Source: a virus
Strand: one strand, 5' to 3'
Virus record (IMG/VR): IMGVR_UViG_3300037493_000430
Location: 1 to 32,429 of that record
DNA: 32,429 nt
Position numbers and translations under genes: made by a program. Positions 11,702 through 15,911 of this stretch are shown in pieces (positions within the stretch are counted from its first letter, which is position 1; each line of letters opens with the position of its first letter). The notes under the pieces were generated by a model. That model made no database searches, was not told the origin of the DNA, and saw nothing but the letters and a program-made list of their open reading frames with translations.

Positions 11702-12961
11702 TCAATTCATCCAGCTGCCTGCGGTTTCGGCAATTGCTTTAGGTTTGCGTTTGTGCGGTTGCCGAATCATAAGCCCTATATATCTAAACGCATCAGCACC
11801 GTGGCTGTACTGGTCGTGCAATGGGTTACGGCTGAACTGCCCGGTATCAGGGTCTACCTCGTAGCGGTAATGGCGCAAACAGGCCAGACCATCAGCAGCG
11901 TGTTCCCGGTCAAAGTAGCAGTTGGGGAATATCGTCCTGGCAGCGTTGATGCTGTCTACCACAGGAACCCGCGGCAATATCTCAGTCTTGTACCCTGCTG
12001 CCCGGACAATATCGTCAATGCTGCGCCCAGCTGCTGCCAGTGTCTTGTTCTCGGCATCGTGCGGTAGCCAAACTTTGTCGTAATGGTAGCCATAGGTCTG
12101 CATCGTGGCCAGGTAATAGCTGATGGTCTTCTGGCTGTCCTCAATGTACCGTATTAGCCTGGTTTCCATGCCTACGAACTGCAAGAACCATATCGCAGTG
12201 CTGTCAGACCAACCCAGATCAAAAACAGCGTGTACGGGCTTTGTGGCGTCAAATGGCACCCGGCAGATGCGACCATCAAGCTCGGCTTGCTGCATTTCCT
12301 TGGCAAAGATGGCACCGTCTACTGTCTGACGGCATAAACCTTCCCACACCTGGTTGTAGGCTTCCTCATCCCTGTTTTTGAGCGCATCTTTCTCTAGGCG
12401 CAATGTCTCAGGGAACCACGGGTTGTCCGACCAGTTAACCTTGATTTGGATGCAGTCATCGGGCGGCAGCAGCACAAAGCGCTTGTAAGTCTCGTCTGTC
12501 TCCAACTCAGGATTGAAGCTGACCCATATCTCGCTGGCTTCTTTGCGGATCGTTGGGATTAGCACGTTCCACGACAGGCGGCTTACGGTCTGGGCTTCCT
12601 CTACCCAGCAGATGTCCACGCCTTCAAATGACTTGATGTTGCTGATGTTGTTCTTCAGCCCAGCAAATGCGAATTCAGTGCCGTTTGATCCCCGAATATT
12701 TGCCTGCGTGATTTCGTAGAAGCTGTGCAGGCCCAATGCCTCTATCTGATCGCACAGGAGCTTGTGTACGCTGTCCTTGATGCTGGTCTGGTACTCACGG
12801 GCACACAGTATGCGGATTGGTCTCTTAGCTCCTTTGATCAGCAATGCTCGAGCAATGCCCCATGACTTAGCACCACCTCGCCCACCGTAGCAAACCTTGT
12901 ACCTGCTGCGCTGGAAAAGGCTTTGCAGCTTTAAAGGAAACTCTGCTTTGACCTCAGTCAT
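11702..12961 (-). CDS. terL: Terminase large subunit (packaging ATPase/nuclease)
   Basis: The 419 residues show a Walker A loop GGRGGAKSWG (about 26-35) and a Walker B strand with catalytic Glu, VDICWVEEAQ (about 115-124). A C-terminal RNase H-like nuclease carries acidic residues in HAVFDLGWSDS (about 244-253), LPHDAENK (about 299-306) and SHGADAFRY (about 386-394). This is the Terminase_3/PBSX-like arrangement. The protein pumps DNA into the procapsid through the portal and cuts the concatemer. Its start overlaps the end of the small subunit gene by eight bases. Confidence 0.95.
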   Translation of the reverse strand: MTEVKAEFPLKLQSLFQRSRYKVCYGGRGGAKSWGIARALLIKGAKRPIRILCAREYQTSIKDSVHKLLCDQIEALGLHSFYEITQANIRGSNGTEFAFAGLKNNISNIKSFEGVDICWVEEAQTVSRLSWNVLIPTIRKEASEIWVSFNPELETDETYKRFVLLPPDDCIQIKVNWSDNPWFPETLRLEKDALKNRDEEAYNQVWEGLCRQTVDGAIFAKEMQQAELDGRICRVPFDATKPVHAVFDLGWSDSTAIWFLQFVGMETRLIRYIEDSQKTISYYLATMQTYGYHYDKVWLPHDAENKTLAAAGRSIDDIVRAAGYKTEILPRVPVVDSINAARTIFPNCYFDREHAADGLACLRHYRYEVDPDTGQFSRNPLHDQYSHGADAFRYIGLMIRQPHKRKPKAIAETAGSWMN

Positions 12962-13289
12962 TCGGCTTTACGAAAGTAACCTGGATGCCTTGGAGCGCTT
13001 CACCGTCTTTGCCGGTTATCTCTTGCTTGACAGTCTCGGCCCATCGTAGCTGGGTCTTTGTCCACCAGATCAGTGCCGTGGTGTCGCCACTGGTTGCCTT
13101 GTCGTACAGTGTTCTGGCAATCTGACCATTGGCCTTTGCCTTGCCCAGGTCTAGCTCAATGCGGTAGTGCTTGCGGAGCGTCTTGTCGTCTATCCCCACC
13201 AGTATTGCTATCTGCTCATGGGGCAAGCCTAACCCGCTGGTGTTCTCAACCAGGCGTTGCATTTCAGGGGTTACTTCATGCTCTACCAT
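12954..13289 (-). CDS. terS: Terminase small subunit
   Basis: The 111-residue protein contains a helix-turn-helix-like segment at about residues 20-45 (GLPHEQIAILVGIDDKTLRKHY), as expected for DNA recognition. A helical region (KANGQIARTLYDKATSGDTT, WWTKTQLRWAE) likely makes the oligomer. It overlaps the large subunit gene directly, the usual pairing. No clear ribosome-binding site precedes the ATG at 13289, but a 29-codon ORF ends across that start codon, so translation may be coupled to it. It selects viral DNA for packaging. Confidence 0.85.
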   Translation of the reverse strand: MVEHEVTPEMQRLVENTSGLGLPHEQIAILVGIDDKTLRKHYRIELDLGKAKANGQIARTLYDKATSGDTTALIWWTKTQLRWAETVKQEITGKDGEALQGIQVTFVKPND

Positions 13290-13372
13290 TTTATATAGGG
13301 GAAATCAGGTTGCATCGTCCGCATTTTAACCATAGGACAAGCCAAGCGGGTGATATCCCCGACTTCAGCCAT
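13283..13372 (-). CDS. Possible 29-residue protein or leader peptide upstream of terS
   Basis: This tiny ORF begins MAEVGDITRLACPMVK and ends PYIKW. It overlaps the stop of the ORF before it by eight bases and the start of terS by seven, which is the spacing of a coupled operon. No ribosome-binding site is visible, so it would depend on the upstream ORF. It could be a real microprotein, a translational coupler for terS, or chance. Confidence 0.35.
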   Translation of the reverse strand: MAEVGDITRLACPMVKMRTMQPDFPYIKW

Positions 13373-13547
13373 CTGTTAAGACTACTGCACCCATAAGGTC
13401 AGGCTTACATTTCCAGAGCGCCCGTATCGTTGGGCTAGTCGTCACATCACCGTTCTGCTCTGTTCCTGAGATACCGCCTGCAAGTTCTCGCGCCGGCTTG
13501 TGAGTAAGCGCATCACTTCTCTCGATAGCAACCGTAACATGGTTCAT
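13365..13547 (-). CDS. Possible small protein between structured RNA and terS
   Basis: From the ATG at 13547 the frame gives 60 residues, starting MNHVTVAIERSDALTH and ending LWKCKPDLMGAVVLTDG. The frame is open further up to a GTG at 13589, but that codon lies inside the stem of the terminator-like hairpin, so the ATG is preferred. The SD signal is weak. The ORF fills most of the otherwise empty stretch before terS and touches the next ORF. I recognise no family. Confidence 0.35.
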   Translation of the reverse strand: MNHVTVAIERSDALTHKPARELAGGISGTEQNGDVTTSPTIRALWKCKPDLMGAVVLTDG

Positions 13548-13579
13548 TGTTTCGCCATCAGCAATCGGTACTGGAACGC

Positions 13580-13675
13580 AAAAAGCCACTTTCTGCTGCG
13601 TCCTGATGGTGCAACATCAGTTCCTTTTGGGATAACGCATGAGAAAGTGGCCTCATACCGTCTTGTGTTGCACCA
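13580..13675 (-). ncRNA. Structured RNA / conditional terminator with interlocked stems
   Basis: On the minus strand, in order: TGGTGCAACA (13675-13666), GCCACTTTCT (13651-13642), TGTTGCACCA (13616-13607), AGAAAGTGGC (13594-13585), then TTTTT (13584-13580). The first pairs perfectly with the third and the second with the fourth, over 10 bp each. The two stems interlock as in a pseudoknot or an antiterminator/terminator pair. Two small hairpins (ATGAG/CTCAT around the second element, CTGATG/CATCAG around the third) place both elements partly in loops. The second-fourth stem followed by T5 is a plausible intrinsic terminator. No protein-coding use is evident here. Confidence 0.55.
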
Positions 13676-13712
13676 CTTGACCAAGAAATTGTAAATCAAA
13701 TTTGGTTCGTTG

Positions 13713-15911
13713 TCATTTAATAAATGATTTCAGACTGTTCTGCTGCTGATCTTGCATCCCTGCGCCTACACCAATGCCACCAATCGGTGCTGCTGTGAAC
13801 AACGGCTGGCCTTTTTTGACACCGCCACGCATCTCAGGGCTAATGTCAATATATCGAACTGGCGCACCGCCTGGTATGCCTTGGCCTGTTTTGATTCTTG
13901 TCTCACCCGTCTTGGCGTTGTACTTCTTGCCTTGCTTTGCAAGGAACGCTGGGTAGATTTCATCGTAGTAGGTTTTCATGCCTTCGCCGCCAATAGTCAG
14001 GTCATCGCCTTTGATTGACCCTACATCTTGTTTATGCTCGGCAATCTGTTTTGCCATTGATTTGCCCAAAACTTCTTCTACGGTTTTGCCTGCCGCTGGG
14101 CCATCAATAAACTTTCCTCTTGATACAGCGCCGCTAAAAGTTTCTTTGCCATTTTTAGATGCTGTGATTTGAATATTTGGAGTGTCAAGTTTGACTGGAA
14201 AGTTTACTGCTGATTTTTCAAAAACAATCTCGTCAACATTCTGACGAATCTCATTGGCATATCTGTCAACCTGCTGCCTACCCGTTGTCAGGCCAACCCG
14301 GTCATAGCCATTGTCAGCTGCGTATTTCAGCGCACGTTTCAGCGCCAGTTGATGCCAGGTGTCCTTGAAAGGTGCGTCTGGTACGCCTTCAGGCTTATTT
14401 AATAAGTTTGTCCATTCTTCATTAAGTTTTGTGGCTTGTTCGCTTAATTTTTTAATTTCCTCGTTCATTGTTTTAAATTTGGTCATCTCTGAATCTGGCA
14501 ATGCCGCTGCTTCTTCTAGTAAGCGTGATCTTTTTTGAGTTGTTATAGTCAATTCTTTTTCAACTTGTGCAGGGTTTCTTTCTTTTCCAGTTTTATACCC
14601 CTTCTCCCGCCCAGCTTGATGCCAATCGGATTGAATCTCCTCAATCAATAGCATCTTCTTGCCATCAGCATCCACTCGGTCATTGACCCTCATATGGGCT
14701 AGGATGTTGGGTTGGTCAAAGTGGGAGGATGTGTAAGATTTTCCAGCTCTTTCAGAGGCCATTTCTGCAATTGCATTATTTGCAGTTGTTGCTGTGTAAT
14801 TGCTACCTCGCTGCGCTCCAGTTTCATCAAACACTAACCAACCAGAGCCTGACTTTTGTGCAGACCAACCAGCAGTATCCATTCGTGCTGGCAACGTCAG
14901 CAATATCTCGCGGTAGTTCTCACCGCCAGGTAGTTGGTATTTTTGGTATGTCGTTGGTGTTGGCTCTGGAATTTTATAAAAAGCATCAGCTTCAGCATCA
15001 CGCATTTCTTGCAGTTTTCTTAAACGATTGTCTGTACTTTGTAAAACTGCCGGGGGCGTGTCATATCCAAAAGAATCCATATCCTTGTACAACGCCTGTA
15101 TCTGAGGCTCGTACTTATCAAACACTGCCTTGCGCTGGGCAATGCCTACCGGGTCTTCTGCAACCGCAGCGCCCAGCTGCCTCTCTTGCACATCAACCCG
15201 ATTGCTGGAAATAAAGTCTTGCACCTCTTGCCGGGTCACATTGGGTTTACCCTTCAGATAGTCATCCAGCCCCAACCAGGAAAGCTCATCCTTCTTAACG
15301 TCCTGGCCCTTCATCAAATCATTGAGGAACGATTCACCCGTGCCTGATTTGCGGGGAATGTTCAGCGCTGCTTGTTCTGCTGCTGAATAGAAACCCAATG
15401 GGGATACTGGCGCTTGCGGCTTCTCTATCATGCTGCCCAAAGGCACTTGAGGCGCTTCTGGCACGATGTTGGGCATCAACCCTTGGCGTTGCAAGTAACC
15501 TTCTGCCATGCGCCCAGCCGTCGGGCCTAGTGCCTTGACACCAGCCGCTGCTGCTCTTGCTGTTGGCATTGGGTTTAGTGGTACGAATGATCCTGCTTGC
15601 CCAGCAACTTCACCAACCCTTGACGTTGGGGCCAGTGGCAGATTCTTCAGGAAATACTCCGAGCCGTAGGGCAATTGCTGCGCTGGCTCGTAATTGGTTT
15701 CGCCAAACATTTCCGTTGGCATTGGGGATTTCAAAAGGTTGGCCAGATCCGTTGGGGTGCCAAGCATTCCTGCCAAGCGTCCACGCATTACATCCAACGG
15801 CACATTAGCAGACCCCTCCCGGTCTTGAAACCTGCGCCTGGGCTTCATCTGCGGGAAAAAGCCTGTTGCTGCCCTGTCGGGCAAAAACGTGCTTAACGGG
15901 TTGTCAGCCAT
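13713..15911 (-). CDS. Large polyvalent-type phage protein, function unknown
   Basis: The 732 residues have several blocks known from large polyvalent phage proteins. Residues about 172-245 (LGFYSAAEQAAL, SWLGLDDYLKGKPNVTRQEV) resemble an LPD-type domain. Residues about 395-440 hold SSHFDQPNILAHMRVNDR and LLIEEIQSDWHQAGREKGY, then a coiled coil (about 445-505). A third block, about 510-552, holds VPDAPFKDTWHQLALKRALKYA and GYDRVGLTTGRQQVDRY, and the end has KTYYDEIYP…PVRYIDISPEMR…GQPLF. Such proteins are thought to travel in the virion and act on arrival in the host, but no enzymatic residue set can be named. The N-terminus is Pro-rich. It lies just upstream of the structured RNA and terS. 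Confidence 0.6.
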   Translation of the reverse strand: MADNPLSTFLPDRAATGFFPQMKPRRRFQDREGSANVPLDVMRGRLAGMLGTPTDLANLLKSPMPTEMFGETNYEPAQQLPYGSEYFLKNLPLAPTSRVGEVAGQAGSFVPLNPMPTARAAAAGVKALGPTAGRMAEGYLQRQGLMPNIVPEAPQVPLGSMIEKPQAPVSPLGFYSAAEQAALNIPRKSGTGESFLNDLMKGQDVKKDELSWLGLDDYLKGKPNVTRQEVQDFISSNRVDVQERQLGAAVAEDPVGIAQRKAVFDKYEPQIQALYKDMDSFGYDTPPAVLQSTDNRLRKLQEMRDAEADAFYKIPEPTPTTYQKYQLPGGENYREILLTLPARMDTAGWSAQKSGSGWLVFDETGAQRGSNYTATTANNAIAEMASERAGKSYTSSHFDQPNILAHMRVNDRVDADGKKMLLIEEIQSDWHQAGREKGYKTGKERNPAQVEKELTITTQKRSRLLEEAAALPDSEMTKFKTMNEEIKKLSEQATKLNEEWTNLLNKPEGVPDAPFKDTWHQLALKRALKYAADNGYDRVGLTTGRQQVDRYANEIRQNVDEIVFEKSAVNFPVKLDTPNIQITASKNGKETFSGAVSRGKFIDGPAAGKTVEEVLGKSMAKQIAEHKQDVGSIKGDDLTIGGEGMKTYYDEIYPAFLAKQGKKYNAKTGETRIKTGQGIPGGAPVRYIDISPEMRGGVKKGQPLFTAAPIGGIGVGAGMQDQQQNSLKSFIK

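Follow-up and report, generated by a model that had tools for sequence, protein, structure and literature searches.

The window analysed here, a stretch of 32,429 nucleotides from an IMG/VR virus record, carries two interlocked inverted repeats shortly before the gene for the terminase small subunit (terS). In this study, we show by comparison with relatives that the repeats do not stand alone. As judged from conservation and covariation, they are the 5' domain of a larger conserved structured RNA, which extends to about position 13331 and thus well beyond the feature described in the first-pass annotation. That this RNA family is real is almost certain. It appears to be undescribed, although structured phage RNAs whose function is unknown are a familiar genre in general. 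The pattern of sequence change indicates that the element is conserved as RNA and not as protein. RNAs whose structure is conserved to this extent are not common and tend to have a specific role, and here covariation alone, without experiments, fixes much of the fold.

Results

Inverted repeats and fold of the 5' domain

The window contains five perfect inverted repeats of at least 10 bp with arms within 100 nt, compared with a mean of 2.45 in 20 first-order Markov windows. Two of them, each of 10 bp, are B/B' (13585-13594/13642-13651) and A/A' (13607-13616/13666-13675). The order of their arms is interlocked, as had been claimed; no second interlocked pair of that size exists in the 32.4 kb of the window, and the random windows had none. 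TTTTT follows the B/B' stem immediately on its 3' side on the minus strand (13584-13580), and the two further short hairpins of the first-pass annotation were found at 13620-13603 (P4, on DNA level CTGATG[TTGCAC]CATCAG) and 13656-13639 (the core of H1, ATGAG[GCCACTTT]CTCAT). A third hairpin, P1, had escaped that annotation; as DNA it reads GTCAAGTG[GTGCAA]CACAAGAC (13681-13660), and its loop GTGCAA is exactly complementary to the P4 loop TTGCAC. This contact of two 6-nt loops is the core of the A/A' repeat. The minus-strand segment of 107 nt folds with -44.9 kcal/mol, 4.7 SD below dinucleotide shuffles. The features are compiled in Table 1; the promoter and the edge of the first hairpin define where the RNA starts, and conservation (CCTATG) defines where it ends.

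Table 1. Features of the structured RNA and its surroundings in the window
Feature	Positions	Strand	Basis or remark
Promoter: -35 ATGACA (13716-13711), 17 nt, -10 TACAAT (13693-13688)	13688-13716	minus	consensus match
Whole structured RNA, ~351 nt	13331-13681	minus	conservation; covariation in both domains
P1, 5' hairpin GUC-AA-GUG[GUGCAA]CAC-AA-GAC	13660-13681	minus	loop A 13673-13668; extended A arm 13675-13666
H1, alternative hairpin UAUGAG[GCCACUUU]CUCAUG	13638-13657	minus	partly exclusive with P2
P2 5' strand GCCACUUUCU (B)	13642-13651	minus	inverted repeat; covariation
P3 upstream strand UGCGUU, partner 13602-13597	13634-13639	minus	fold; comparison of members
P4 hairpin CUGAUG[UUGCAC]CAUCAG	13603-13620	minus	loop A' 13614-13609; extended A' arm 13616-13607
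P3 shared strand GACGCA, partner 13639-13634 or 13580-13574	13597-13602	minus	fold; pairing test
P2 3' strand AGAAAGUGGC (B')	13585-13594	minus	inverted repeat; covariation
U-run after P2, terminator-like	13580-13584	minus	found in every member
P3alt, downstream copy UGCGUUC, possible partner of shared strand	13574-13580	minus	pairing test
3' domain, ~249 nt, eight helices	13331-13579	minus	20/41 pairs with compensatory changes
Spurious 74-aa ORF on the RNA	13365-13589	minus	frame broken in about half of relatives; no PHROG match
Terminase small subunit (terS), first gene after the RNA	12954-13289	minus	phrog_309, E = 3e-14
Terminase large subunit (TerL)	11702-12961	minus	phrog_3717, E = 1e-66; phrog_2, E = 5e-43

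In the nested fold P1 is followed by a long hairpin (P2, P3), which holds a small hairpin and P4 and ends in UUUUU. A and A' both lie unpaired in hairpin loops of the window's fold while P2 is formed, so that A/A' can stabilise the terminator-like hairpin instead of competing with it. The two stems had been proposed to be competitors; they need not be, since all of these helices can pair simultaneously. Among the members, A and A' are both unpaired in only 16 of 59 nested folds, as many loops are partly closed by the fold. The 5' domain is better described as a pseudoknot than as a choice between terminator and antiterminator. From the proposal of a terminator, the U-run after the hairpin stands, being found in every member; the idea that a second stem must compete with it does not. 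A GC-containing hairpin followed by a U-run is the form of an intrinsic terminator, with a loop that is unusually large and branched. H1 is invariant across the family, but its letters were fixed by the search pattern and hence gave no covariation test.

The GACGCA strand has two mutually exclusive partners, forming either P3 or P3alt, and from these sequences a switch function is possible. P3 forms 7.3 of 10 pairs on average against 7.15 with swapped partners, and P3alt 8.7 of 10 against 8.5, so both show next to no covariation. We rejected P3alt as a classical antiterminator, since the polymerase has already passed the U-run when the second strand of P3alt is transcribed.

Covariation of the 5' domain

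Each of the six pairs of the A/A' loop-loop contact was changed on both sides among 22 distinct sequences, with zero broken pairs (100% paired). The 5' structure as a whole was 96.9% paired in these sequences, and 0 of 500 shuffles came as high. The loop pairs observed were GUGCAA/UUGCAC, CUGCAA/UUGCAG, CUGGCA/UGCCAG, CUGCCA/UGGCAG, CUAGCC/GGCUAG, CCGACA/UGUCGG, CAGCAA/UUGCUG, CGGCAA/UUGCCG and UUGCAC/GUGCAA; moreover, 7-nt loops stand opposite 7-nt loops in some members (read by eye). This covariation is not a selection effect, because the search patterns left the loop letters free. In the wider family A/A' is a helix of up to 13 unbroken Watson-Crick pairs, and the mean Watson-Crick run of 28 distinct A/A' helices was 9.8; swapping the partners gave 4.8 and shuffling 4.7. 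The P2 core GCCNNUUN/NAANNGGC forms 8/8 pairs in 15 distinct pairs versus 6.5/8 when swapped, members having been picked partly by that pairing, and the 22-sequence covariation is the cleaner evidence for P2. A/A' and P2 thus both covary strongly, in agreement with the pseudoknot that the first-pass annotation had considered. The same annotation had let its suggestion of an RNA hang on compensatory changes in the paired arms, and relatives carry them.

Inverted repeats near terS also call to mind a DNA site of pac or cos type, at which the small terminase would bind and the repeats would be the dyads that it recognises. We consider such a site very improbable: the compensatory changes include G-U pairs on one strand only (they are frequent in P2 and P3 on the minus strand), which favours RNA over a DNA site; a promoter is present; and the RNA also occurs far from terminase genes.

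The 3' domain

Conservation runs about 250 nt beyond the U-run, with insertions and deletions. An alignment of 20 of these 3' domains, three of them very divergent, gave a consensus fold of 41 pairs, 20 of which show compensatory changes (0 of 500 shuffles), with 95.4% of cells paired. The covariation score was 0.295, versus 0.129 for shuffles and at most 0.051 with the partners slid. The fold includes a long-range stem (13501-13495 with 13343-13337). This stem, ACAAGCC/GGCUUGU, is replaced by pairs of the GACCCC/GGGGUC type in L143, L222 and L223, as read by eye; the alignment captures this partly. At the 3' end (13331-13336 in the window, and in relatives) the sequence CUAUG is nearly universal. 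In L240 this terminal CUAUG provides the start codon of a recT-like gene, and elsewhere a very short frame follows.

An ORF finder puts a false gene on this RNA. The 74-aa frame at 13365-13589 was ruled out as a small protein gene by indels, which break it in about half of the relatives, and its product found no match among the PHROG families. CUGAUGA..CGAAAC, a string of the 3' domain that resembles a hammerhead, is lost in L094, L143 and L220 and was discarded as chance.

The U-run lies between the two domains, and in L088 and L091 the common 5' domain leads into a 3' part that differs strongly, so that modular domains are conceivable. Both facts would suit two separate units, in which a terminated RNA of only about 100 nt precedes a structured element independent of it. 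We judge this unlikely, as a similar 3' domain follows the 5' domain even in the very divergent L143, L222 and L223, and P3alt would join both domains.

Members of the family and database searches

About 100 IMG/VR contigs, from uncultured phages, carry the RNA. A terS search of IMG/VR yielded 80 loci, 13 of which have the RNA by blastn; the remaining terS loci gave no hit with a covariance model. Further members came from pattern scans, which led to about a hundred contigs. A final count with one pattern gave the 5' domain in 117 fetched loci, corresponding to 77 distinct 900-nt contexts, as some contigs were fetched repeatedly. The divergent members L089 and L143 were recognised by covariance model R1 (E = 1e-11 and 6e-9), which matches 35/35 chosen viral records.

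With Rfam 15 at the gathering score, the window and eight divergent members showed no family at the RNA, GOLLD and ROOL included; only tRNA and a CRISPR repeat were found elsewhere. Permissive Rfam searches of the RNA from the window, L143, L099, L147, L222 and L213 gave chance-level matches only. There was no match to the RNA in 50,697 INPHARED phage records, and a small number of representatives run against plasmids and E. coli genomes gave none either. In a search for hosts among 84,980 species a strict P1 pattern, which would miss most divergent members, found no true member, and neither did model R1 in 398 Pseudomonadota genomes, a search run without positive control. No match to the RNA was found in the literature, where subscription papers were mostly outside the search; the nearest analogues are GOLLD/ROOL, HK022 putRNA and phi29 pRNA. 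A CRISPR link suggested by one repeat-like match in L204 was dismissed, as there is no direct-repeat array there. Type III toxin-antitoxin RNA and retron RNA were provisionally set aside as well; the next gene here is terS.

Predicted promoter and genomic context

The -10 hexamer of the promoter lies 6 nt before the start of the RNA. Ten of twelve consensus letters of a sigma-70-type promoter are reached by 59% of 68 distinct upstream sequences, versus 1.2% of shuffles, and in close relatives the common sequence begins at about the -10 hexamer. We infer from this that the RNA is transcribed from its own sigma-70-type promoter. No terminator-like site was found between the RNA and terS on the minus strand of the window, so that a transcript passing the U-run would enter the terS operon. 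The gene before the RNA (13713-15911, 732 aa) matches an endolysin PHROG in its middle part only (phrog_7348, E = 2e-21).

In the window the RNA is followed by TerS, TerL and portal. TerL was found in 22 of the 35 RNA-bearing records, and in 18 of these 22 it follows the RNA on the same strand, counting three where this holds only if the contig is circular and two where it is more than 11 kb away; in a few records it is on the opposite strand. The phrog_2 TerL matches of the RNA-bearing G433, G434 and G435 are interrupted by several stops in frame (TGA, TAG). The genes that come next in divergent members, named by eye, look recT-like (L240), erf-like (L211) or of replication type (L213, L200), with other genes in further members. 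Thus, the RNA is not tied to packaging, and the earlier proposal of a switch for packaging genes in particular is not supported. The following genes are mostly on the same strand in the members listed, with a gene start 330-400 nt after the RNA start in several (L240, L211, L147, L101, L200, L204) and much further off in L229, L213, L237 and L206. In L222 an opposite-strand ORF adjoins the RNA.

Phages whose TerS proteins are almost the same may carry the RNA or lack it. Five terS relatives without it have other sequence before terS, while TTCCCC(T)ATATAAAATG at the terS start is common. L010, L016, L023 and L005 have other sequence in its place and an identical TTTCCCCTATATAAAATG at the terS start; by this comparison the RNA behaves as a present-or-absent module. 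In L143 (1184-1256) and L222 (5992-6064) a tRNA gene lies no more than a few hundred bases from the RNA, which recalls GOLLD and ROOL.

The position before the terminase genes, here and in many relatives, together with two covarying loops as in the prohead RNA (pRNA) of phi29 (PMC12670572), could speak for a packaging RNA assembled via these loops on portal or terminase. This appears improbable: the phage has a TerS/TerL pair, the RNA elsewhere precedes recombination or replication genes, and there is no Rfam match to pRNA.

Discussion

The predicted promoter of its own and the absence of a further terminator before the next gene make the RNA most likely an operon leader. Our preferred reading, which we hold tentatively and which was derived from sequence comparison, is a cis-acting leader RNA controlling read-through past the U-run. 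The RNA would be transcribed from its own promoter and run without further terminator into the next gene. The 6-bp kissing contact A/A' knots the 5' domain with the U-run hairpin, and the knotted hairpin would make transcription terminate conditionally, or pause, near +100. The folded leader would hereby set the amount of read-through into the operon, here terS-terL-portal, and control might come from a ligand, from a protein of the phage or from a direct effect of the RNA on RNA polymerase, in the way that HK022 putRNA suppresses polymerase pausing and termination. The mostly same-strand genes that follow, several of them starting 330-400 nt after the RNA start, favour a leader. Several other findings run against it. 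Downstream genes vary from one phage to another, which leaves no common target operon, and the 3' domain is conserved though it lies beyond the terminator-like site. The few records with opposite-strand TerL, the opposite-strand ORF of L222 and the genes far downstream fit poorly as well.

The main rival is a trans-acting structured phage RNA like GOLLD/ROOL, either discrete or cut from an operon transcript, and perhaps an oligomer like the homo-oligomeric cages of GOLLD/ROOL, as the two loops could kiss between molecules too. It would account for the large size, the heavy conservation of both domains, the occurrence of the same RNA beside different genes and different terminases, and its patchy occurrence in phages that have almost the same TerS; tRNA genes nearby, as in L143 and L222, have been reported for GOLLD and ROOL (PMC12286853). 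However, no terminator-like site was found between its 3' end and terS, and in several phages the RNA abuts the next gene, which is a better fit for a leader. A role in trans is a possibility to be taken seriously, if a doubtful one.

Put more broadly, the RNA could represent a new class of large pseudoknotted phage RNA, an operon-head module in differing phages that is either a conditional internal terminator or trans-acting; we advance this guardedly. Such modules may then sit at the heads of early or late operons. The phages that have the RNA differ in their terminases and in the genes downstream of it, and the RNA is missing from the catalogues searched (Rfam 15, INPHARED). It offers a testable case for the timing of phage operons by RNA, or a further ornate phage RNA beside GOLLD/ROOL.

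Comparison with known systems

With riboswitches and attenuators this RNA shares a probable leader position, a hairpin that ends in a U-run and a strand that can pair with either of two others. Unlike them, it has no Rfam aptamer match, carries 250 nt more structure after the terminator-like hairpin, and its second partner strand is made after the U-run.

In phi29 pRNA two covarying complementary loops pair between molecules via three to four bases (PMC12670572). Here, too, two loops covary to remain complementary, but with six to seven loop bases, possible intramolecular pairing and a different fold, in a phage that has TerS and TerL.

HK022 putRNA, of about 70 nt, forms two stem-loops near early promoters (PMC9378689). 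Like putRNA, the present RNA is a phage RNA just after a promoter at the head of an operon and could act on RNA polymerase in cis. It differs in being about five times longer (351 nt), knotted and composed of two domains, with a terminator-like site inside.

GOLLD and ROOL are large structured phage or prophage RNAs of unknown function with kissing loops supported by covariation, often near tRNAs (PMC12286853). The present RNA is smaller, about 351 nt versus about 660 to over 800, and has a terminator-like hairpin inside; it shares with them the large phage-borne structure, the covarying kissing loops and, in two members, tRNAs close by.
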